From: Vallitalea sp.
GTDB lineage: Bacteria; Bacillota; Clostridia; Lachnospirales; Vallitaleaceae
Direction: 5' to 3'
Assembly (NCBI GenBank): GCA_025210235.1
Contig: JAOASG010000071.1
Location: 1 to 64,000, forward strand
Length of the DNA: 64,000 bases
Positions 12,172 to 23,254 of the stretch are shown here, one piece after another. Position numbers and translations under genes: made by a program. The notes beneath the pieces are model-generated. The model worked only from the letters and a program-made list of their open reading frames with translations, made no database searches and had not been told where the DNA came from. Within the stretch, counting starts at the first letter, position 1. Each line of letters begins with the position of its first letter.

Positions 12172-12200
12172 TTGACTTTTGATACTACGTGTGGTAATAT
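12172..12200 (+). promoter_or_regulatory. Sigma-A promoter of the FmdE-ABC-Lar operon
   Basis: TTGACT (12172-12177) and TAATAT (12195-12200) are separated by exactly 17 bases, a near-consensus vegetative promoter. Transcription should start around 12206, giving a leader of about 135 bases before the FmdE start codon. Confidence 0.85.
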
Positions 12201-12205
12201 CTTTA

Positions 12206-12311
12206 TAGAAATGAGTCACGAAGGCTCAATAAATAACTTATAGAAATTAAAGTTGATAATTAACAGCCCATGAAGGGTACTAGGCAACTAGTATTTTTTA
12301 TGGGCTTTTTT
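12206..12311 (+). promoter_or_regulatory. Structured leader with nested terminator: candidate riboswitch or attenuator
   Basis: A first hairpin, TGAGTC/GGCTCA with loop ACGAA, lies at 12212-12228. A terminator follows: AGCCCAT (12265-12271) pairs with ATGGGCT (12300-12306) and runs into a T-tract to 12311. It encloses an inner hairpin ACTAG-GCAA-CTAGT. The bases CCC (12267-12269) could instead pair with GGG (12275-12277), which would block the terminator stem. A terminator between a strong promoter and a long metal/cofactor operon implies regulated read-through. I could not match it to a riboswitch class I know; a protein- or translation-controlled attenuator is also possible. Confidence 0.7.
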
Positions 12312-12342
12312 GATTTTTGGATAATTTGAGGAGGACTAGTAA

Positions 12343-12867
12343 ATGGATAAAGAATTATGGAATAAATGTATAGAATTTCATGGACATGAATGTCCAGGTC
12401 TTGCTATTGGTTTTAGAGCATGCGAAATAGCAATAAAAAAGATTAATCTTACATTTTCTAAAGATGAAGAATTAGTATGTATTACAGAAAATGATGCTTG
12501 TGGAGTAGATGCAGTTCAAGTTATTACAGGTTGTACAATGGGTAAAGGAAATCTTATATATAGAGATACTGGTAAGATGGCATTTTCATTTTTTAATCGT
12601 ACAAATGGAGATAGTATAAGATTAATAATGAATAACTTTCAGTCAGAAATGAGTAGAGATGAAAAAAAACTACATATATTAAATGCACCTGAAGAAGAAG
12701 TATTTACTATTAAAAAACCTGATTATGAAGTGCCATCACGTGCGAGAATATTTAATACTATTATTTGTCAAAAATGTGGAGAAGGTGTAAAAGAAACTAA
12801 TATTAGATTAAGTAACGGAGAAAAACTATGTCTTGATTGTTATGAAGAATATTCAAGAGGCTGGTAA
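12343..12867 (+). CDS. FmdE family protein with C-terminal zinc finger
   Basis: This 174-residue protein has the N-terminal FmdE motif EFHGHECPGLAIGFRA and ENDACGVDAVQVITGCTMGKGN, giving conserved His and Cys ligands. A C-terminal zinc finger of two CxxC pairs (CQKCGEG and CLDCYEEY) follows. FmdE-type proteins are linked to metal or metallo-cofactor handling and often sit beside metal transporters. It is the first gene of the operon behind the structured leader, with a GAGGAGG site. A role as a metal-delivery or sensing protein for the adjoining ABC importer and Lar enzymes is inferred. Confidence 0.88.
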   Translation: MDKELWNKCIEFHGHECPGLAIGFRACEIAIKKINLTFSKDEELVCITENDACGVDAVQVITGCTMGKGNLIYRDTGKMAFSFFNRTNGDSIRLIMNNFQSEMSRDEKKLHILNAPEEEVFTIKKPDYEVPSRARIFNTIICQKCGEGVKETNIRLSNGEKLCLDCYEEYSRGW

Positions 12868-12878
12868 TACATAATAAA

Positions 12879-13970
12879 ATGAAAGATGTGATAAAAATTA
12901 AATATGAAGTAGCTAATGAAAAAGATGGAATAGAAGCATATAAAAGTTATACAGGGAAAAAAGTAGGTATACTAATATCATCTATTATATTAATGTTTAT
13001 ATTATCAGTTATTGCAATAAATGCTGGTTCTACTAATTTAAAATTTTCAGAAATATTTAAGTCTATTATTGGCCATGGAACAGTAAGCTCAAATGTTGTT
13101 GTTTTAAGTATTCGCTTACCAAGAGTAATAGCTGCTATTATTGCAGGTGCAGGTTTATCGGTTTCAGGTTGTGTTATGCAAAATAACTTACGAAACCCAT
13201 TAGCTTCTCCAGCAACATTGGGAATATCTAATGCGGCTGCTTTTGGAGCTAATTTAGCTATTATTATATTTGGAGCAGGCAGTTTTAGGAGTTTAAGTGC
13301 TGATGCGGTTATTATTAATAATCCATATATTGTTACTTTGTCAGCTTTTGTTTTATCCATGTTAGCAACTATTGTTATATTGTTATTGGCTAAACTAAAG
13401 AGTTTTGCACCTCAATCTATTATATTAGCTGGAGTTGCGTTAGGATCTCTTTTCTCTGCAGGTATTACTTTAATACAATATTTTGCTGATGATGTACAGG
13501 TAGCAGCAGCTGTTTTTTGGACCTTCGGGGATTTGGGTAGAGTATCATGGAATGAAGTTTTTATAATGTTTATTATAATAGGTATAGCATTAATCTATTT
13601 TATGTTTAAAAGATGGGATTATAATGCTCTAGATAGTGGGCAAGAAGTAGCTAAAAGTCTCGGTGTTAATGTAGAAAGAGTACGTTTTGGAGGAATGTTT
13701 GTATCTTCATTAATTACAGCAGTATCTGTTTCATTTTTAGGAATTATTGGATTTATTGGGTTAATATCTCCGCAAATAGTAAGAAGGATTATTGGAGGAG
13801 ATCACCGTTTTTTGATACCAATATCAGCTATATGTGGTTCAATAATTTTATTATTTGCAGATACATTGGCAAGAACAATAATTGCGCCTGTTATACTACC
13901 AGTAGGAGCAATAACATCTTTTTTAGGTGCACCATTATTTTTATATTTACTTATAAGGGGGCAAAAATAA
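12879..13970 (+). CDS. FecCD-family ABC importer permease
   Basis: This 363-residue permease of the BtuC/FhuB/FecCD family has about ten TMs. Motifs include RLPRVIAAIIAGAGLSVSG near residue 80, NPLASPATLGIS, and the C-terminal FIGLISPQIVRRIIGGDHR that contacts the ATPase. The family imports metal chelates (siderophores, cobalamin, haem, Ni or Co complexes). The N-terminal ~20 residues before the first TM are unusually polar and the ribosome binding site is poor, so the exact start is uncertain. Context suggests nickel or another metal chelate as substrate. Confidence 0.9.
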   Translation: MKDVIKIKYEVANEKDGIEAYKSYTGKKVGILISSIILMFILSVIAINAGSTNLKFSEIFKSIIGHGTVSSNVVVLSIRLPRVIAAIIAGAGLSVSGCVMQNNLRNPLASPATLGISNAAAFGANLAIIIFGAGSFRSLSADAVIINNPYIVTLSAFVLSMLATIVILLLAKLKSFAPQSIILAGVALGSLFSAGITLIQYFADDVQVAAAVFWTFGDLGRVSWNEVFIMFIIIGIALIYFMFKRWDYNALDSGQEVAKSLGVNVERVRFGGMFVSSLITAVSVSFLGIIGFIGLISPQIVRRIIGGDHRFLIPISAICGSIILLFADTLARTIIAPVILPVGAITSFLGAPLFLYLLIRGQK

Positions 13971-13971
13971 G

Positions 13972-14724
13972 ATGATTCTTTCAGTTCAAGGATTGGACTT
14001 TAAATATCCTAGTCATAAAGTCTTAAAAGATGTTTCATTTAGTTTAGAAAAAGGCGAATGTCTTGCAATATTAGGAACTAATGGTACAGGGAAATCTACT
14101 CTTTTAAAATGTATAAACAGAATTTTAAAGCCTCAAAAGGGCTCGGTTTTAATTGATGAATTAGATATTTCGAAATTAAATCAAATAGAATTAGCTAAAA
14201 GAATAGGGTATGTTTCTCAAAGTAATAGTACTATTAGAACGACTGTATTTGATGCTGTTCTTATTGGAAGAAAACCTTATATTAAATGGGATGTTACAAA
14301 AAAAGATCTAGATATTGTAAATAATGCAATAAAAATGCTTGGGTTAGAAAAATATGCATTAAGATATATAGATGAACTAAGTGGAGGAGAACTTCAAAAA
14401 GTAATTATAGCTAGAGCGTTAGCACAAGAACCAAAGGTTTTGATGCTAGATGAACCTACAAGTAGTCTTGATCTTAAGAATCAGCTAGAAGTGATTAATA
14501 TTATTAAAAATGTAGTTAATAATAATAAAATCTCTGCGTTAGTTACAATACATGATTTAAACTTAGCATTAAGATTTGCAGATAAATTCATATTATTAAA
14601 AGATGGGAAAATATTTGCAGCCGGTGGTCAAGAAGTTATGACTTCAAAAAATATTGAGCGTGTTTACTCAGTTCCCGTAAAAGTTGAAAAAATATGTAGC
14701 AAAATGATTGTAGTACCTGTTTAA
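13972..14724 (+). CDS. ABC importer ATP-binding protein (FecE/BtuD type)
   Basis: This 250-residue ATPase has Walker A GTNGTGKST (about residues 36-44), signature LSGGELQK, Walker B VLMLDEPTSSLD and the switch histidine in TIHDLNLAL. It begins one base after the permease stop, with GGGGGC in the permease's 3' end as ribosome binding site. Together with the permease and the lipoprotein it makes a complete FecBCDE/BtuCDF-like importer. Confidence 0.93.
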   Translation: MILSVQGLDFKYPSHKVLKDVSFSLEKGECLAILGTNGTGKSTLLKCINRILKPQKGSVLIDELDISKLNQIELAKRIGYVSQSNSTIRTTVFDAVLIGRKPYIKWDVTKKDLDIVNNAIKMLGLEKYALRYIDELSGGELQKVIIARALAQEPKVLMLDEPTSSLDLKNQLEVINIIKNVVNNNKISALVTIHDLNLALRFADKFILLKDGKIFAAGGQEVMTSKNIERVYSVPVKVEKICSKMIVVPV

Positions 14725-14786
14725 TACAAGAATTGTTGTATAAAATAATTTACTACATTATTATAAAAGATAGGAGCATACTATTA

Positions 14787-15914
14787 ATGAAAAAAAATAT
14801 ATTATTTATTATAATTTTAGTAATAACATTAAGTTTTTTTGTTGGATGTACTACAAGTCAAACTACAGTTAATAAGGACTCAAATGAAGAAGATTCATAT
14901 GATAATAAGATAATTATAACTGATATGTTAAATAGAACTGTTACAATAGATAACAATGCAAAAAAAATAGTTGCTATTGGACCTGGAGCATTAAGATTAT
15001 TTTGTTATGTAGATAGTATTGATAAAGTAGCTGGAATAGAACAAATCGAAAAAAAATATTCTATGGGAAGACCTTATGCACTAGCAAATCCATCTATAAA
15101 AGATTTAGATGTAATAGGACCAGGAGGACCAAATAATTCTCCTGATGTTGAAAAGCTATTCTCAGTTAAACCAGACGTAATATTTTCTATGTATGGAAAT
15201 GATAAATCTGCTGTAGATAAATTGCAAACTAAAATTGGAATACCAGTTATAGCATTAAGTTATGGGAAAGTGGCAACTTTTGATCCTGCGGTATATGAAT
15301 CTATTAAAATTATTGGAGAAGTTATGGGGCAAGAAGAAAGAGCTGAAGAAGTTATAAATTATATGAAAGAGTGTTATAATGATTTAAGTAGAAGAACAAA
15401 AGATATAGATGATAGTAAAAAAATAAGTACATATATCGGTGCGCTATCTTATAAAGGTAGTCATGGTATAGAAAGTACTTATGGAGAATATTCATTATTT
15501 AAAGCCATTAATGCGAAAAATGTTGTTGATGAAGTAGATAAGACAGGTTCTATCATGATAGATAAAGAAAAGATTATAGAATGGAATCCAGATAAAATTT
15601 TTATTGACTATGGAGGATTAAATCTTGTAAAACAGGATTATGAAAAGAATCCAGATTTTTATAATTCTTTATCTGCATTTAAAAATGGTGAAATATATTC
15701 TCAGTTACCATATAATTTTTATCATACCAATATAGGAACTTCCATAGCAGATGCATATTATTTGGGAAAAGTTCTATACCCGGAACAATTTCAAGATATT
15801 GAACCTGATAAGAAAGCAGATGAGATTTATAAATTCCTTGTTGGAAAAGAAGTTTATTCACAAATGGTTGAAGATTTTGGTTCATTTAGTAAAATATCAA
15901 TTATAAATAAATAG
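14787..15914 (+). CDS. ABC importer substrate-binding lipoprotein (BtuF/FecB type)
   Basis: The 375-residue protein has a lipoprotein signal peptide with lipobox FVGC (Cys21). A periplasmic-binding-protein fold of the TroA/BtuF group follows (DMLNRTVTIDNNAKKIVAIGPG; KPDVIFSMYGN; WNPDKIFIDYGG). The start at 14787 is chosen because TAGGAG precedes it and the signal peptide begins there; an upstream in-frame TTG at 14733 would add a hydrophobic extension. It completes the importer. The ligand is not determinable from sequence, but the Lar neighbours suggest nickel. Confidence 0.9.
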   Translation: MKKNILFIIILVITLSFFVGCTTSQTTVNKDSNEEDSYDNKIIITDMLNRTVTIDNNAKKIVAIGPGALRLFCYVDSIDKVAGIEQIEKKYSMGRPYALANPSIKDLDVIGPGGPNNSPDVEKLFSVKPDVIFSMYGNDKSAVDKLQTKIGIPVIALSYGKVATFDPAVYESIKIIGEVMGQEERAEEVINYMKECYNDLSRRTKDIDDSKKISTYIGALSYKGSHGIESTYGEYSLFKAINAKNVVDEVDKTGSIMIDKEKIIEWNPDKIFIDYGGLNLVKQDYEKNPDFYNSLSAFKNGEIYSQLPYNFYHTNIGTSIADAYYLGKVLYPEQFQDIEPDKKADEIYKFLVGKEVYSQMVEDFGSFSKISIINK

Positions 15915-15937: not shown

Positions 15938-17173
15938 ATGAAAGTATTATATTATGATTGTTTCGCAGGTATAAGTGGAGATATGAACTTAGGTGCTTTA
16001 ATAGACCTTGGGGTTGACAAAAGTTACCTTATAAAAGAATTAGATAAATTATCTATATCAAAGGAATTTAAGCTGAAAATAGAAACAAAGCAAAAAATGG
16101 GTATTACAGGAACAAAAGTTGATGTAATATTAACAAATAATATACATCATGAACATCACCATCATGAAGAGCACAATGAACATCACGAACATCACCATCA
16201 TGAAGAACATCATGAACATAGAAATTTAAGAAGTATATATAATATTATTGATAGTAGTAGTTTAAATGATAATATAAAACAATTAAGTAAAGATATATTT
16301 AATGTTGTAGCTAAAGCAGAAGCTAAAGTACATGGAAAATCAATTGATGAAGTACATTTTCATGAGGTAGGTGCTGTAGATTCTATAGTTGATATTATTG
16401 GTGCAGCAATTTGTATTGATAATCTAAAGGTAGATAAGATTATATCCTCTACAATAGAATTAGGAGGAGGATTTGTTAAATGTGCTCATGGAATTATTCC
16501 AGTACCAGCGCCTGCGACTTCAGAAATTTTAAATAATGTTCCAATTCATTTAGGGAAAGTAAATTTTGAAACGACTACACCAACAGGAGCTGCAATATTA
16601 AAAACAGTAGTTAATGACTTTACTAGTTCAATGGATTTTAAAATATTAAAAACGGGGTATGGACTTGGGACTAGAGATTTTGAAATACCAAATGTACTAA
16701 GAGTTTATTTAGGGGAAGAAAAAAATAAATCAAAAAAAATACAAACGATTATAGAAGTAAATATAGATGATATGAATTCAGAATTATATAGTTATGTCGA
16801 AGAGAAGCTTTTTGAAAATGGTGCATTAGATGTTTATAAAACACCTATAATAATGAAAAAAGGTAGACCTGCAATTAAACTAAGTGTATTAACTGAACTT
16901 GATAATACACAGGTTATAGAAAAAATATTGTTAATGGATACAACTACCTTAGGTCTTAGAAAATACAATGTTGAAAAATTAGAGTTAGATAGAGAGTTTT
17001 CAGTAGTTTCAACAAAGTATGGAGATATTCCTTTGAAAATGGGATTATTAGATGGTACAGTTATAAAAATGAAACCTGAATATGAGGTATGTGAAAAATT
17101 AGCAAATAAATATGGAGTTCCAATAAGAGTTATTTATGATGAAATATCAAAAATAAACATAAATGGAGAATGA
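15938..17173 (+). CDS. larC: Nickel-pincer cofactor nickel insertase LarC
   Basis: This 411-residue protein starts with the LarC signature YYDCFAGISGDMNLGALIDLG. A histidine-rich loop (16 His between about residues 67 and 95) would bind nickel. Other motifs include DEVHFHEVGAVDSIVDIIG, PVPAPATSEIL and ETTTPTGAAILK. LarC is the CTP-dependent cyclometallase that inserts Ni into the pincer nucleotide. In Lactobacillus plantarum it is made by a ribosomal frameshift between larC1 and larC2; here it is one uninterrupted ORF. AAAAAGGAG precedes the ATG. It is flanked by the metal importer and LarE. Confidence 0.95.
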   Translation: MKVLYYDCFAGISGDMNLGALIDLGVDKSYLIKELDKLSISKEFKLKIETKQKMGITGTKVDVILTNNIHHEHHHHEEHNEHHEHHHHEEHHEHRNLRSIYNIIDSSSLNDNIKQLSKDIFNVVAKAEAKVHGKSIDEVHFHEVGAVDSIVDIIGAAICIDNLKVDKIISSTIELGGGFVKCAHGIIPVPAPATSEILNNVPIHLGKVNFETTTPTGAAILKTVVNDFTSSMDFKILKTGYGLGTRDFEIPNVLRVYLGEEKNKSKKIQTIIEVNIDDMNSELYSYVEEKLFENGALDVYKTPIIMKKGRPAIKLSVLTELDNTQVIEKILLMDTTTLGLRKYNVEKLELDREFSVVSTKYGDIPLKMGLLDGTVIKMKPEYEVCEKLANKYGVPIRVIYDEISKININGE

Positions 17174-17175
17174 TT

Positions 17176-17988
17176 ATGGACAAATATTTTACTTTAATAC
17201 AATACTTAAAAAAATTAGAGAAAGTAATAATAGCTTTTTCAGGAGGAGTAGATAGTACTTTTTTATTATATGCAGCGAAAGAGGCATTAGGTGATAATGT
17301 AAAAGCTGTAACAATAAACTCACCTTATATAGCTAAGTGGGAAATTAAAGAAGCTAAAGAATTCACTAAAAAACTTGGGATTAAGCATGATTTTATAAAC
17401 GTCGAAATCGCATCACATATAAAAAATAATCCCATAAATAGATGTTATCTATGCAAAAAATATATATTCCAAAAAATTAATGAGAAAGCAGTAAATGAAG
17501 ATTTTAAATATGTTATTGATGGAACAAATTATGATGATACTAAAGATTACAGGCCAGGTATGAAGGCATTGAGAGAACTAAAGATAATTAGTCCATTATT
17601 AGAATGCGAGATTACTAAATCTGATATTAGATTAATGGCAAAGAAGAGAGAACTAGAAGTATGGGATAAACCTTCTTATGCCTGCCTATTAACAAGAATA
17701 GAACATGATACAATCATTGAGTCTGATATGTTAGAGAGAATTGAAAAAGCAGAAAAATTTTTAATGAATAAAGGAATGAAAGCGTGTAGGGTAAGAGTGC
17801 ATGGAAACTTAGCTCGAATAGAACTAAATAGAAATAATTTTATTAATATTATCAATGAAAAAGTTATCAATGAAATTACAAGTTATTTTTCAGAGATAGG
17901 GTTTAAATATGCAACATTAGATTTGCAAGGGTATAAAATGGGTGATTTTAGTATAAAAACATTAGAGGCAGGTGGCTTGAATGAATGA
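17176..17988 (+). CDS. larE: Pincer-cofactor sulfur transferase LarE
   Basis: This 270-residue PP-loop enzyme has the ATP-binding motif FSGGVDSTF (residues 21-29) and WDKPSYACLLTR near residue 170. LarE adenylates the biosynthetic intermediate and supplies sulfur. Besides Cys170, the position of the sacrificial cysteine in the L. plantarum enzyme, it has a CxxC pair (C90, C93 in NRCYLCKK). This three-cysteine pattern fits LarE proteins that use an iron-sulfur cluster instead of sacrificing a cysteine; that is an inference. ATG 17176 is favoured over 17170 because GGAGA lies 6 bases upstream. Confidence 0.93.
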   Translation: MDKYFTLIQYLKKLEKVIIAFSGGVDSTFLLYAAKEALGDNVKAVTINSPYIAKWEIKEAKEFTKKLGIKHDFINVEIASHIKNNPINRCYLCKKYIFQKINEKAVNEDFKYVIDGTNYDDTKDYRPGMKALRELKIISPLLECEITKSDIRLMAKKRELEVWDKPSYACLLTRIEHDTIIESDMLERIEKAEKFLMNKGMKACRVRVHGNLARIELNRNNFINIINEKVINEITSYFSEIGFKYATLDLQGYKMGDFSIKTLEAGGLNE

Positions 17989-18727
17989 ACAAGAAATAAT
18001 TCAATTATTAAAGCAATTGCAAAATAATAATGTATCAGTAGACGAAGCATATGAAGTAATTAAAGATTTGCCATTTAAGGATTTAGGTTTCGCAAAAATC
18101 GATAATCATAGAGAAATAAGAGTGGGGTATCCAGAGGTAATATATTGTGAAAATAAAACGATATCTCAAGTAAGAGAAATAATTAAATTCATGTTAACCA
18201 AAAACAATAATATTTTAGCAACTAGAGCTTCTAAAGAAATGTTTGAAAATGTTAAGGATTTGAATAGTGATTTAAAATATAATGAATTAGGAAGAACAAT
18301 TACTTATGAGGTTAATAAAATTCAAAAAACAGATTCTTATATTGCTATAGTTTCAGCAGGAACATCTGATTTAGCAGTAGTTGAAGAAGCTAAAGAGACT
18401 GCATTAATATTAGGAAATCAAGTAGAGGTTATTACTGATGTTGGAGTAGCAGGAATTCATCGATTATATGCTAGATTAGATTTAATTAGAGGCGCAAAAG
18501 TAATTATAGTAATAGCTGGTATGGAAGGTGCACTGGCTAGTGTAGTAGGTGGTCTTGTAGATAAGCCAATTATTGCAGTACCAACAAGTGTTGGATATGG
18601 TGCTAATTTCAACGGTCTATCAGCATTACTTTCTATGTTAAATAGTTGTGCTTCTGGTGTATCAGTAGTTAATATTGATAATGGATTTGGAGCAGCATAT
18701 AATGCAAGTATGATAAATCAAATATAA
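17981..18727 (+). CDS. larB: Pincer-cofactor biosynthesis carboxylase LarB
   Basis: This 248-residue protein has a variable N-terminal half and a C-terminal AIR-carboxylase-like domain (IAIVSAGTSDLAVVEEA, DVGVAGIHRLYARLD, VIAGMEGALASVVGGLVDKP, VPTSVGYGANF). LarB carboxylates and hydrolyses nicotinic acid adenine dinucleotide, the first step to the pincer nucleotide. Its ATG overlaps the end of larE by 8 bases and has an internal AGGTGG site. It is the last gene of the operon before a strong terminator. No larA follows. Confidence 0.95.
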   Translation: MNEQEIIQLLKQLQNNNVSVDEAYEVIKDLPFKDLGFAKIDNHREIRVGYPEVIYCENKTISQVREIIKFMLTKNNNILATRASKEMFENVKDLNSDLKYNELGRTITYEVNKIQKTDSYIAIVSAGTSDLAVVEEAKETALILGNQVEVITDVGVAGIHRLYARLDLIRGAKVIIVIAGMEGALASVVGGLVDKPIIAVPTSVGYGANFNGLSALLSMLNSCASGVSVVNIDNGFGAAYNASMINQI

Positions 18728-18862: not shown

Positions 18863-19213
18863 TTATTTTACAATATTATTATCACTATCTAATAATACAA
18901 CTTTTGGTGTAAAATTTTTAGCTTCTTCTTTTTCCATTAATGCATATGCAATAATAATAACTACATCTTCTGGTTGAACCAATCTAGCGGCAGCTCCATT
19001 TAGACATATTGTTCCACTATTTCTTTCTCCTTTAATTACATAAGTTTCTAGTCTTGCTCCATTATTATTATTTACTATCTGAACTTTTTGTCCAGGGAGT
19101 ATATCAGCAGCTTCCATTAATTTTTCATCAATTGTAATACTACCTACATAATTTAAATTAGCATCAGTTACAACTGCCTTATGAAGCTTTCCAGTCATCA
19201 TTTCTATTAACAT
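18863..19213 (-). CDS. panD: Aspartate 1-decarboxylase PanD
   Basis: This 116-residue proenzyme has the self-cleavage site Gly24-Ser25 (NYVGSITID), which yields the catalytic pyruvoyl group. Further motifs are [29 protein letters not shown] and the glycine/alanine-rich [17 protein letters not shown]. It makes beta-alanine from aspartate for pantothenate synthesis. It starts one base after the panC stop and is last in the panG-panB-panC-panD transcript. Confidence 0.96.
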
Positions 19214-19214
19214 A

Positions 19215-20063
19215 TTAATTAACCTCCATTCTTAAGTTATCGATTAGTCGTGTATTTCCAAATCTTACAGCAAGTGCAATAAGAGTATTTCCTTCAATTT
19301 TATCTATATCTTCAAGAGTATTTTCACTAACTATGCTTATATAATCAATTTTTGCTAATGATTTAGAATTAATACTTTGTTGTATACTAGATTTAACAAT
19401 GTCTGCTGAACGTTCACCATCTATAATAATATTTTTTGCCATTTGAAGAGATTGAAAGAGAATCGTTGCTTGGCCTCGTTCTTCTTGATTAAGATATTTA
19501 TTTCTTGAGCTCATAGCTAAGCCATCTTTTTCTCTAATAATTGGACAAGTAATAATTTCTACAGGTATATTTAAATCTTTTACCATTCTATTAATAACAA
19601 GTGCTTGTTGAGCATCTTTTTGACCAAAATAAGCTTTTTTTGGTTGAATAATATTGAATAATTTAGTAACAATTGTTGTAACACCTTGAAAATGTGTTGG
19701 TCTAGAGCTACCACATAAATTCGCTGTTAGATTATTAACATTAACATAGGTAAAATGATTTTCTAAATACATTATAGAATCAGAAGGTATAAATACAATA
19801 TCTACCCCTGCATTTTCTGCAAGTCTTTTGTCATTTTCAATATCTCTTGGATAACTATCTAAATCTTCTGTTGGTCCAAACTGAGTTGGATTAACATATA
19901 TACTAAGTACAGTTATGTCATTTTCACTAACAGATTTATTTAGAAGAGATATATGCCCTTCATGCAAATATCCCATTGTAGGTACAAGTCCAATGCTTTT
20001 TCCATTACTACGATGTGTATCTAATAATTCACGCATTTCTTTAATAGTATTAAAAACTTTCAT
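19215..20063 (-). CDS. panC: Pantothenate synthetase PanC
   Basis: This 282-residue enzyme has the nucleotidyltransferase motif [14 protein letters not shown] with its HxGH-type element, then [20 protein letters not shown] and the second ATP motif [10 protein letters not shown]. It joins pantoate and beta-alanine with ATP. The panB stop and panC ATG share a base at 20063, so translation is coupled. Confidence 0.96.
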
Positions 20064-20908
20064 TAATTATTTCCTCCATAAATAATCAAATTCATTACGC
20101 TTTCATCAATGTGAAAAACATGTTCTGAACTTGGAAATGTTTTGCTTTTAACGTCTTCAATATAATTTTTAGTTGCTTCTGTAATTATTTCTTGTATATT
20201 TGCATATTCTTTAACGAATTTTGGTGATTTATTGGAATATAGGTTTAGAATATCATGGGTTACTAATACTTGACCGTCACAATTTGCACCAGCACCTATT
20301 CCTATAGTAGGTACGTTAACATTCTTTGTTATTAGTTCAGCTAATTCAGTAGGTATACACTCTAGTACTATTGCAAATACACCTGCTTCTTCTAAAGCTT
20401 TTGCATCTTCTATTAATTTTTTAGCTTTTTCTTCTGATTTTCCTTGAATGTAATATCCACCAAGTTGATTAATTGATTGAGGAGTAAGACCTAAATGTCC
20501 CATAACTGGAATTCCAGCATTAACCATTGCTTTAGTTTGGTCTACTACTTCTATACCACCTTCTAGTTTTACAGCGTTAGCTTTTCCTTCTTGAATTAGA
20601 CGACCAGCATTTTTTACAGCTTCATGTACTCCTAAATGGTATGATAAAAATGGTAGATCAGCTACTATTAATGATCTCTTACTTCCACGAGTAACTGCTT
20701 TTACATGATGAAGCATATCTTCCATAGTTACTTGGGTAGTATCTTCATATCCTAAAACTACCATTCCAACAGAATCTCCTACTAATAAAATATCAATTCC
20801 AGCTTCATCTAAAATCATTGCTGTTGGGTAATCATATGCTGTTAACATAGTTATAGGTTCATCTGAATTTTTTTTTCTTCTAATAGTTTCAGTCGTTATT
20901 TTTTTCAT
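20063..20908 (-). CDS. panB: 3-methyl-2-oxobutanoate hydroxymethyltransferase PanB
   Basis: This 281-residue enzyme has ITMLTAYDYPTAMILDEAG, LLVGDSVGMVVLGY (metal-binding Asp), NAVKLEGG, PVMGHLGLTPQSI and IGIGAGANCDGQVLV. It adds a hydroxymethyl group from methylene-tetrahydrofolate to ketoisovalerate to make ketopantoate. Its start lies 20 bases inside the preceding DUF2520 gene, so the reductase and PanB are translationally linked. Confidence 0.97.
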   Translation of the reverse strand: MKKITTETIRRKKNSDEPITMLTAYDYPTAMILDEAGIDILLVGDSVGMVVLGYEDTTQVTMEDMLHHVKAVTRGSKRSLIVADLPFLSYHLGVHEAVKNAGRLIQEGKANAVKLEGGIEVVDQTKAMVNAGIPVMGHLGLTPQSINQLGGYYIQGKSEEKAKKLIEDAKALEEAGVFAIVLECIPTELAELITKNVNVPTIGIGAGANCDGQVLVTHDILNLYSNKSPKFVKEYANIQEIITEATKNYIEDVKSKTFPSSEHVFHIDESVMNLIIYGGNN

Positions 20909-21764
20909 TTTTTAATATCTCCCTTAAATTATTAACAGTATTTTCATCTAAAGTATTTTTTCTCATTACAATATCTAACGTTTTATTACCTAATACAGAA
21001 TATATATTGTTAATATCTTTATTTTGTTTTGATAATACTTCTATATGTTTTTGTATAGTACTAATATCACCTCTAGCTATTGGACCGGAAAGGGCACTTT
21101 CTGGACCTTTTTCAAAAATATTATTTAAAGTACCTTTTACTAATGGTTCAATAAGCTCTAAAGAAGTTTTTGAATCAAATCCTATCATATTTAGCATTTG
21201 AACGCCCGTATCCATTAGTGTAACAAGATAATTAGATACTATACAAGCTGATGCATGATATAAAGTTTTTTGCTTTGTTTTTATATTATATATTTTAAGT
21301 TTATTATCTTCTAGTAATTGTATAAATTCGTTAATTATATTTCCTTTTCCTTCTAATGTAAATGGTGTATGGTGTAACAAGCTAAGTGCGTGTTCAATAT
21401 CTGCAAATGATAATATTGGGTGTAGTGATGCTATAGTAGCTCCTTTTTGATATAAAGGTTCTAATACAGAAGAAGGATGAGCACCACTAGTATGACATAT
21501 TACTTTGTTATTTAGGTTTATATTTGTCATAATTATATCCGCAACAACATCTTCTATTGCATCGTCTGGTGTTGTAATCATAACGTATTTTGATGAAATA
21601 ATTAAATTTTCAATGTTTTCAAAAGTTTTACTATTGGTTTTGCTGGCACTTTTTTTTGCAGAAATATATGTTCTACTAGTATATCCACTAATAGACATAT
21701 TCATTTTATGAAAATACATACCTAGAGTAGTACCAACATTCCCAGCACCTATAAATCCAATCAT
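20889..21764 (-). CDS. panG: Probable ketopantoate reductase PanG (Rossmann + DUF2520)
   Basis: This 291-residue protein has an N-terminal Rossmann motif IGFIGAGNVGTTLG, strands ending in YVMITTPDDAIEDVV, then the DUF2520 half (TSGAHPSSVLEPLY, ASLHPILSF, HASACIVSNYLVTLMD, GPIARGD). Proteins with this build have been described as an alternative ketopantoate reductase, PanG. Overlap with panB supports that role here, as no PanE is visible. The start is set at 21764 because GGAGG lies between it and the upstream in-frame ATG at 21776. Confidence 0.82.
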   Translation of the reverse strand: MIGFIGAGNVGTTLGMYFHKMNMSISGYTSRTYISAKKSASKTNSKTFENIENLIISSKYVMITTPDDAIEDVVADIIMTNINLNNKVICHTSGAHPSSVLEPLYQKGATIASLHPILSFADIEHALSLLHHTPFTLEGKGNIINEFIQLLEDNKLKIYNIKTKQKTLYHASACIVSNYLVTLMDTGVQMLNMIGFDSKTSLELIEPLVKGTLNNIFEKGPESALSGPIARGDISTIQKHIEVLSKQNKDINNIYSVLGNKTLDIVMRKNTLDENTVNNLREILKNEKNND

Positions 21765-21824
21765 ATAAACCTCCATACCTAGCTCATTTTCTATATTAGT
21801 AGGTCTTTACTATAACATAAAAAA

Positions 21825-21850
21825 CCTTCTTTAGGCAGTACCAAAGAAGG
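21825..21850 (-). terminator. Intrinsic terminator between coaBC and the pan operon
   Basis: On the minus strand AACCTTCTTT pairs with AAAGAAGGTT and is followed by TTTTT. It should end the coaBC transcript. Only about 60 bases remain before panG, so the pan operon either uses a promoter overlapping the T-tract or is expressed by read-through. Confidence 0.82.
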
Positions 21851-21856
21851 TTAAAA

Positions 21857-21926
21857 TATAACTCAAACTTCGAATTTATTTTAGTTTGCTTCACACGTAT
21901 TTATGAAGTGTGAAGTTTGAGTTACA
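21857..21926. repeat. Inverted-repeat element, family 2, copy 1
   Basis: Outer arms TAACTCAAACTTC and GAAGTTTGAGTTA enclose an inner hairpin CTTCACA/TGTGAAG. The right side ends AGTTACATAA, closely matching the element at 38393-38465. Confidence 0.65.
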
Positions 21927-21991
21927 TAACTTATTCAACTTGATACTGTCTTTGTTCTATATAGAATCAAAGCAGATTTTTATTTATTATT

Positions 21992-23194
21992 TTATTTGCT
22001 AATTTGTTTAGTAATATAATCAAGGATTACATATGCTAATTCTTTTTTTGGCATAACTGCATGATTTTGTTTTAAACCGTTTTTATCAATTAATGTCACA
22101 CAGTTAGTATCTGATTCAAATCCAGCATTTACACTTGTAATATCATTAACTATTATTAAATCAACATTTTTATTATGAAGCTTTTTAATCCCATTTTCCA
22201 TGACATCATTGGTTTCAGCTGCGAATCCCACAATATATTGTTGAGGGTTTTTATGCATGCCGATCCATTTAAGTATGTCTGTATTACGGGTTAGTGTAAG
22301 ATTAATATCGCCGTCGGATTTTTTGATTTTTTGATTTTCATATATCTTTGGACGATAGTCAGCTACAGCAGCAGTTTTAATAACTATATCTTGTTGTGAC
22401 AAATTTTCTTTTACAGCTTCAAACATTTCAGTAGCTGTTTTAATTGGTATATATTTTTTTATGTTACTTGGTTTTGGGATGTTTACAGGACCAGATATTA
22501 AAGTAACTTCTGCTCCTTGCATTGCGGCTGCTTCTGCAATTGCATATCCCATTTTACCAGAAGAATAATTTGTCATAAAACGAACTGGATCAAGAGGTTC
22601 TCTTGTTGGACCAGCTGTTATTAATATTTTTTTTTCATCTAAAGGTTTATTATTTATTAATGTATTAGTGATTGATTCAATTATAGTAGTTACATTTGCA
22701 AGTTTTCCAATGCCTAAATCACCACATGCTAGTCTTCCTTGTTCTGGATCAATAAAATTATAACCAAATTCTTTTAATTTAGTTATATTATTTTGAACAA
22801 TAGGATTATTATACATATTAGTATTCATAGCTGGTGCAATAATTACAGGTGCTTTTGTTGCCATTACAGTTGTTGATAACATATCATCTGCAATTCCGTT
22901 TACTATTTTTCCTATTATATTAGCGGTAGCAGGTGAAACCAAAAATAAATCTGCTGATTTAGCTAAAGAAATATGTTCAATATCCCATTTTTGTATTTTT
23001 TCAAACATATCTACAACAACAGGATTCATACTTAGTGATTGAAATGTTAGGGGTGATACAAATTCTGTTGCTGATTTTGTCATAATTACATGAACATTAG
23101 CATTTAATTTTTTTAATCTACTTACTACATCGCACATCTTATATACAGCTATTCCACCACTTACACCTATTACGATAGTTTTTCCTTTTAACAT
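21992..23194 (-). CDS. coaBC: Bifunctional phosphopantothenoylcysteine decarboxylase/synthetase CoaBC
   Basis: The 400-residue protein has an N-terminal flavin-dependent CoaC domain: GKTIVIGVSGGIAVYK, the His motif HISLAKSAD and APAMNTNMYNNP. The C-terminal CoaB domain has ILITAGPTREPLDPVRFMTN-type and SSGKMGYAIAEAA motifs. It converts phosphopantothenate plus cysteine to phosphopantetheine. The start at 23194 follows AAAGGAG; the ORF extends 20 codons further but through the promoter region. It precedes the pan genes on the same strand, separated by a terminator. Confidence 0.96.
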   Translation of the reverse strand: MLKGKTIVIGVSGGIAVYKMCDVVSRLKKLNANVHVIMTKSATEFVSPLTFQSLSMNPVVVDMFEKIQKWDIEHISLAKSADLFLVSPATANIIGKIVNGIADDMLSTTVMATKAPVIIAPAMNTNMYNNPIVQNNITKLKEFGYNFIDPEQGRLACGDLGIGKLANVTTIIESITNTLINNKPLDEKKILITAGPTREPLDPVRFMTNYSSGKMGYAIAEAAAMQGAEVTLISGPVNIPKPSNIKKYIPIKTATEMFEAVKENLSQQDIVIKTAAVADYRPKIYENQKIKKSDGDINLTLTRNTDILKWIGMHKNPQQYIVGFAAETNDVMENGIKKLHNKNVDLIIVNDITSVNAGFESDTNCVTLIDKNGLKQNHAVMPKKELAYVILDYITKQISK

Positions 23195-23225
23195 ATGGAA
23201 ATCTCCTTTCGGTGTTAGTAGCTTA

Positions 23226-23254
23226 AATATAACATAGTAGAAAATAAAAATCAA
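23226..23254 (-). promoter_or_regulatory. Sigma-A promoter of coaBC
   Basis: On the minus strand TTGATT and TATATT are separated by 17 bases, with the -10 element about 30 bases before the coaBC ATG. Confidence 0.65.

Follow-up and report, generated by a model that had tools for sequence, protein, structure and literature searches.

A conserved hairpin-terminator leader before nickel and cobalt genes of Clostridia: a putative transcription-antitermination element

How is an operon for metal uptake and nickel-pincer cofactor synthesis controlled in Vallitalea sp., and to which signal does its leader respond? The window analyzed here is a stretch of 64,000 nucleotides, in which a sequence-only reading had placed an unassigned riboswitch or attenuator in front of such an operon. 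Pfam and NCBIfam assignments confirm the FmdE-FecCD-larCEB gene content on which that reading was based, and the parts described for the leader, i.e. a promoter, a TGAGTC/GGCTCA hairpin with an ACGAA loop, a linker and a terminator, are all present where they had been placed (Table 1). We consider it probable that the leader acts in cis as a conserved transcription-antitermination element, that it belongs to a nickel (or nickel/cobalt) regulon of Clostridia and that it is worked by a trans-acting factor.

Table 1. Features of the leader and operon in the window, and genes behind matches of covariance model R2 in other clostridial genomes (L numbers denote loci)
Feature	Position or locus	Strand	Basis
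Promoter TTGACT-17-TAATAT, TG before -10 (extended -10)	12172..12200	+	Consensus match; conserved with leader in Vallitalea relatives
Hairpin 1 (hp1), UGAGUC-ACGAA-GGCUCA, loop 12218-12222	12212..12228	+	Stem covariation across 28 leaders
Linker	12229..12264	+	Without conservation outside the genus
Hairpin 2 (hp2), putative antiterminator, GCCC-AUGAA-GGGU	12266..12278	+	Same loop type as hp1; pair statistics over 73 leaders
Intrinsic terminator with U-run (stem 12265-12306)	12265..12312	+	5' arm is hp2; folding, shuffle test
fmdE-like gene, first under control (FmdE domain and zf-dskA_traR)	12343..12867	+	Pfam PF02663, PF01258
FecCD-type ABC permease	12879..13970	+	Pfam PF01032
ABC transporter ATPase	13972..14724	+	Pfam PF00005
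Substrate-binding lipoprotein (Peripla_BP_2)	14733..15914	+	Pfam PF01497
larC	15938..17173	+	NCBIfam TIGR00299/NF052512 above cut-off
larE	17170..17988	+	NCBIfam TIGR00268 above cut-off
larB	17981..18727	+	NCBIfam NF033503 above cut-off
cbiM	L117, L122-L124, L126, L130, L136, L138, L140, L141, L143-L145, L150, L161		Strong R2 matches
SBP_bac_5/NikA-like proteins	L125, L132, L146		Strong R2 matches
DUF3842 with CooT and NikA	L127		Strong R2 match
larE-larB	L128		Strong R2 match
Methyltransferase and Nik-type transporter genes	L131, L156		Strong R2 matches
Methyltransferase	L134		Strong R2 match
ECF-S components, some with methyltransferase	L133, L135, L137, L139, L142; also L080, L108		R2 matches
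FecB-type binding proteins	L148, L149, L152; also L079 at 9560		R2 matches
Cobaltochelatase-like ATPase	L151		Strong R2 match
Radical-SAM protein	L129, L159		Strong R2 matches

The promoter match taken alone is not above chance; transcription is expected to start near 12207, and hp1 lies directly behind the promoter. The stem of hp1 comprises six base pairs including one U-G, and its loop is of the same C-G closed type, AYGAA, as that of hp2. The CCC/GGG pairing that had been put forward as a possible block to termination exists in the form of hp2, and its role as a competitor is backed by the pair statistics given below. In the window leader hp2 and the terminator use the same 5' arm and are mutually exclusive in base pairing. 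The terminator stem consists of 19 pairs around GGCAAC followed by a U-run (one found as compared to 0.1 expected in shuffled sequences), and it contributes most to the folding of the leader, which departs from shuffles with a z of -7.8. Predicted energies amount to about -5.4 kcal/mol for hp2 versus about -27.5 kcal/mol for the terminator. With so weak an hp2 facing so strong a terminator, termination would be the default, hp2 would need help, and a bound factor would correspond to the ON state. A genus-specific third hairpin (ACUUA..UAAGU) was left out of the element because it is unstable in the window and lacks an equivalent when leaders from other taxa are aligned.

Within the genus, the leader and an fmdE gene behind it occur together in four of six Vallitalea genomes, the remaining two lacking both. 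The promoter is kept together with the leader in the relatives, and both hairpins are nearly identical across the four leaders, whereas the region between terminator and gene is divergent. A covariance model built from the Vallitalea leaders alone (R1) gave only weak chance matches outside the genus in the order, an example being locus L017, where the match lies on the strand opposite cbiM. In two of the genomes (L022/G003 and L024/G005) the stretch between terminator and fmdE contains an insert that resembles a MITE and has the terminal inverted repeats GTATAGGAGAATAT...ATATTCTCCTATAC, and in G005 (L032/L024) the fmdE gene ends a few codons early at a TAG stop (EEY* as compared to EEYTRGW in relatives), which is probably harmless.

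That the element extends far beyond Vallitalea emerged from a scan of fmdE relatives with one genome per species, which yielded 80 loci in numerous Clostridia and in related classes. A recurrent plan was found upstream of these genes: a hairpin with a variable stem and a C-G closed loop A[C/U/A]GAA, a linker, CCAYGAAGG as a second such hairpin, and a terminator with CUUCRUGG as its 3' arm, which pairs with the second hairpin. In the 80 regions of up to 300 nt upstream of the fmdE homologues, a C-ANGAA-G hairpin of at least 4 bp is present on the sense strand in 34 regions and never on the antisense strand, with 0.55 expected from shuffles. The loop C-A[C/U/A]GAA-G is near-invariant in both hairpins, and the stems show heavy compensatory change. 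A lack of conservation and covariation in homologous leaders, or a hit to a known Rfam class, had been named as grounds for refuting the proposed element; the proposal passed on both counts, and covariation was seen in an alignment of 28 leaders. Standard pairs occupy 93% of the structure cells in this alignment, compared to 80% with shuffled partners and 35-50% with partners slid by 1-3 columns, although the structure was partly drawn from the same sequences and is thereby favoured over its slid versions. Changes on both sides of a pair are seen in 102 cells as against 39 in shuffles; such counts are inflated by related rows, but the slid controls keep this relatedness and yet fall far below. 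Both-side changes affect 15 of the 22 pairs overall and six of seven in hp1, and the terminator is paired in 97.5% of its cells, double changes included. One might argue that all this reflects merely a terminator or processing site that is conserved upstream of the genes and devoid of regulation, the terminator being indeed the strongest feature. We regard this as extremely improbable, as hp1, which is not part of the terminator, shows covariation and retains the same loop, and as the element tracks one functional class of genes.

In a larger set of 73 leaders, all of which have hp2 and a terminator, hp1 is clear in 47. The third, fourth and fifth pairs of hp2 form in 81%, 63% and 68% of the 73 leaders, respectively, compared to 42%, 41% and 54% when partners are shuffled. 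This excess indicates that hp2 is kept as a hairpin in itself, beyond its service as a terminator arm, and such selection is, judged from the sequences, a sign of an antiterminator; in many leaders other than that of the window, hp2 consists of just two pairs. In the 47 leaders the two loops lie 18-109 nt apart, with values clustering mainly at 44-68 nt, a few long values being artefacts of the parser, which took a hairpin inside the terminator for hp2. Both hairpins of these leaders carry five-nucleotide loops of the type ANGRA. Variants are AUGGA, ACGAU, AUGUA and a four-nucleotide YGAA, the latter in hp1 of L128, L132, L133, L135 and L139; ANGGA forms a minority of the loops and occurs mainly in Desulfosporosinus, where AUGGA is found. 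The feature that is recognized is thus only partly defined. Leaders with three hairpins (L122, L123 and L145) exist alongside others that apparently possess a single hairpin directly behind the promoter (L137, L152 and L156). In L142 (from 588, reversed; G471:C2:27813-27658) the element is immediately followed by a second hp2 and terminator unit, such that tandem terminators precede the ECF-S gene.

Which genes stand behind the element was assessed with a second covariance model (R2), trained on fmdE leaders only and run over 391 genomes of the class, 71 of which contain matches at E <= 0.05. The weak end of this list includes chance matches (e.g. L153, L155, L157 and L158). About 30 sites at E <= about 1e-4, by contrast, lie nearly all before fmdE or genes of the nickel/cobalt type, the exceptions being L118, beside a recombinase gene, and L129, before a radical-SAM gene of unclear role. 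Some gene names in Table 1 come from reading translated open reading frames; 19 first genes were sampled against NCBIfam or Pfam. CbiM and NikA are nickel or cobalt importers (PMC2667541). In eight genomes (G416, G500, G531, G583, G585, G605, G624 and G741) a gene of the CooT family follows on the same strand within approximately 5 kb downstream of the element. CooT and the Lar proteins are nickel proteins, for Lar also by the NCBIfam names. The assembly of nickel/cobalt import and nickel-protein genes behind the element points to nickel, perhaps together with cobalt, as the common thread; the association is not clean with regard to the two metals, since the models for CbiM and the cobaltochelatase-like protein carry cobalt names. 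Element and regulon are well supported. The pincer nucleotide had been among the ligands considered. Genes of the lar pathway are found at only two to three of 125 loci and this pathway is an occasional member of a regulon centred on nickel and cobalt import, which renders the pincer nucleotide implausible as a general ligand. The good copy of the element at L118 (1501-1593) lies beside the gene of a site-specific recombinase, which is encoded on the opposite strand, and has no metal gene behind it; an insertion may have separated the element from its target gene. Neither the plasmid collection nor those viral contigs that fitted a simple pattern contained a match to the element or its model.

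The element has no match in Rfam 15, in line with what had been supposed: searches at gathering and permissive thresholds, which covered the leader of the window and, permissively, eight homologous loci, assigned it to no family, and at L041 and L047 faint similarity to His_leader stayed below the gathering score. No description of the element was found in the open literature. We class it, as an element not described before, with terminator-based antitermination by way of repeated recognition hairpins, and mutually exclusive conserved structures with covariation place it among the terminator-based attenuators and antiterminators. In that sense the attenuator half of the initial proposal stands, while the small repeated hairpins, the free linker, the leaders with a single hairpin and the default-off logic resemble the target of an RNA-binding antiterminator more than an aptamer. 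RNA control of nickel and cobalt homeostasis genes in Firmicutes is already exemplified by the NiCo (czcD) riboswitch (RF02683), which controls export and consists of one compact junction aptamer. The element, in contrast, has no match in Rfam and consists of small separate hairpins before import genes. In its role it resembles NikR in the control of nickel import; NikR, however, acts on DNA and the element in the leader RNA.

The following mechanism is proposed. By default the leader would fold into the terminator and the operon would be off. An active trans-acting factor would grip the identical C-ANGAA-G hairpins. It would probably be recruited or pre-loaded by hp1, the first of them to emerge, and would then hold hp2 and deprive the terminator of its 5' arm, so that RNA polymerase could read into the transporter and nickel-cofactor genes. 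This logic of mutual exclusion is read from the base pairing. The factor, for which we infer a protein with metal as its signal, should act at nickel/cobalt shortage because most targets are importers, and it would be released when metal is plentiful, as might be expected for an RNA-binding protein that is active in its metal-free form. The free linker of 18-109 nt and the leaders with one to three hairpins suit modular binding by a protein, and default-off logic would fit a protein that releases RNA upon metal binding and would not fit a simple nickel/cobalt aptamer, with which metal would switch import on.

The latter argument weighs against a true riboswitch, in which the twin ANGAA hairpins themselves would be the receptor for a metal ion or a metabolite, whose binding would stabilize hp2 and block termination: with the ligand-bound state being ON, a metal would turn on its own importers. 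In favour of a riboswitch, the loops are strongly conserved, and the guanidine-II (mini-ykkC) riboswitch sets a precedent with two small hairpins, near-identical loops and a free linker. The element differs from it in its C-G closed ANGAA loop, the overlap with the terminator, the lack of a rule of loop-loop complementarity and the genes concerned. Loop-loop kissing as in guanidine-II was rejected, given that no pairing rule connects the loops and that A occurs at loop position 2, where it cannot pair with G3; a pairing pattern between the hairpins at this position is lacking. Furthermore, the conserved core comprises only about 7 nt per hairpin, the linker varies widely, and some leaders apparently have one hairpin only. 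A riboswitch is possible, yet doubtful.

Candidate protein factors were surveyed by Pfam models, and absences were called in genomes that are 94-100% complete. The closest formal parallel is offered by ANTAR-domain proteins such as NasR, AmiR and EutV, whose target RNAs likewise contain a pair of small hairpins that have equal loops, the second of which overlaps an intrinsic terminator, and in which binding of the factor leads to read-through (PMC3369931; PMC8934654). A variant of this system, with an ANTAR protein on the two hairpins as on dual hexaloops, is quite improbable and largely refuted. ANTAR genes do occur in 22 of the 27 genomes tested, but the domain is absent from five element-bearing genomes (G531, G583, G503, G526 and G420) and present in Vallitalea without the element. 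The ANTAR hexaloop ANNGNN has A1 and G4, whereas the element has the C-G closed pentaloop ANGAA with A1 and G3; single- and triple-hairpin forms and a nickel/cobalt regulon further set it apart. In eut the linkers measure 5-12 nt, and a length of 14 nt is enough to reduce induction drastically; those of the element are much longer than the eut range.

As in HutP and LicT/SacT antitermination, binding of the factor would keep the leader terminator from forming. HutP itself was rejected as the factor, since the family is missing from all six Vallitalea genomes and nine other element-bearing genomes (22 of 31 element-bearing versus 11 of 31 element-free genomes have it). The HutP family (PF09021) occurs in 33 of the 62 clostridial genomes tested, i.e. 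about half. CooT is attractive as a sensor, being a nickel binder and a neighbour of fmdE in Desulfosporosinus, and is commoner with the element (15 of 31 genomes versus three of 31 without it, possibly by lineage only); it was discarded for its absence from all six Vallitalea genomes and its presence in no more than these 15 element-bearing genomes. FmdE was discarded likewise, since over a dozen of the element-bearing genomes that were tested lack it.

CsrA comes closest in distribution, being encoded in 28 of 31 element-bearing genomes and in all four element-bearing Vallitalea, compared to five of 23 element-free genomes of the class. Dimers of this protein can bridge two hairpins, so that CsrA or a CsrA-like dimer might be imagined to clasp both hairpins and prevent termination. 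Some loops (AUGGA, AAGGA) conform to ANGGA. CsrA binds GGA (PMC4894983), but this motif is missing from most loops (ANGAA), and the leaders do not qualify as CsrA targets. CsrA is absent from element-bearing G526, G699 and G725, the latter two with canonical leaders, and both Vallitalea genomes without the element encode it; the association may be an effect of lineage and motility. CsrA as the factor is accordingly very improbable. None of ANTAR, HutP, CooT, FmdE and CsrA is present in every element-bearing genome tested, and the lack of a universal family among those tested speaks against the protein-dependent reading and for the riboswitch alternative.

For the protein-dependent reading, there is a fair chance that the sensor belongs to a new family. 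We give somewhat better than even prospects to the broader proposition of a new metal-responsive class of antitermination, in which an undescribed family of nickel/cobalt-sensing RNA-binding proteins, distinct from ANTAR, HutP, CooT, CsrA and FmdE, or the RNA itself, recognizes repeated C-ANGAA-G hairpins and controls metal import in Clostridia. Many Clostridia, among them acetogens, sulfate reducers and cellulose degraders, rely on enzymes of nickel and cobalt. A large number of organisms with nickel transporters lack NikR, and the literature searched names no other regulator for them; if the proposition holds true, the element would fill NikR's role across Clostridia. A nickel/cobalt regulon is defined by the one RNA element that operons of the cbiM, nik, fmdE-FecCD and lar types have in common. 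The element can serve as a marker for assigning a metal to orphan transporters (FmdE-FecCD, ECF-S with methyltransferase, DUF3842) and allows a new antiterminator, or a new metal-sensing RNA, to be sought directly.

DUF3842 (PF12953), which lies inside element-led nickel transporter operons (L127 and L064), is a candidate nickel protein. Elsewhere in the window, the minus strand at 18863-23254 carries a convergent operon that looks like one for pantothenate/CoA synthesis (panD-, panC-, panB- and coaBC-like genes with a Rossmann-type reading frame between them, names being based on the reading frames only), and a group II intron domain (Rfam RF00029, 45 bits) is located at the left edge (62-136).
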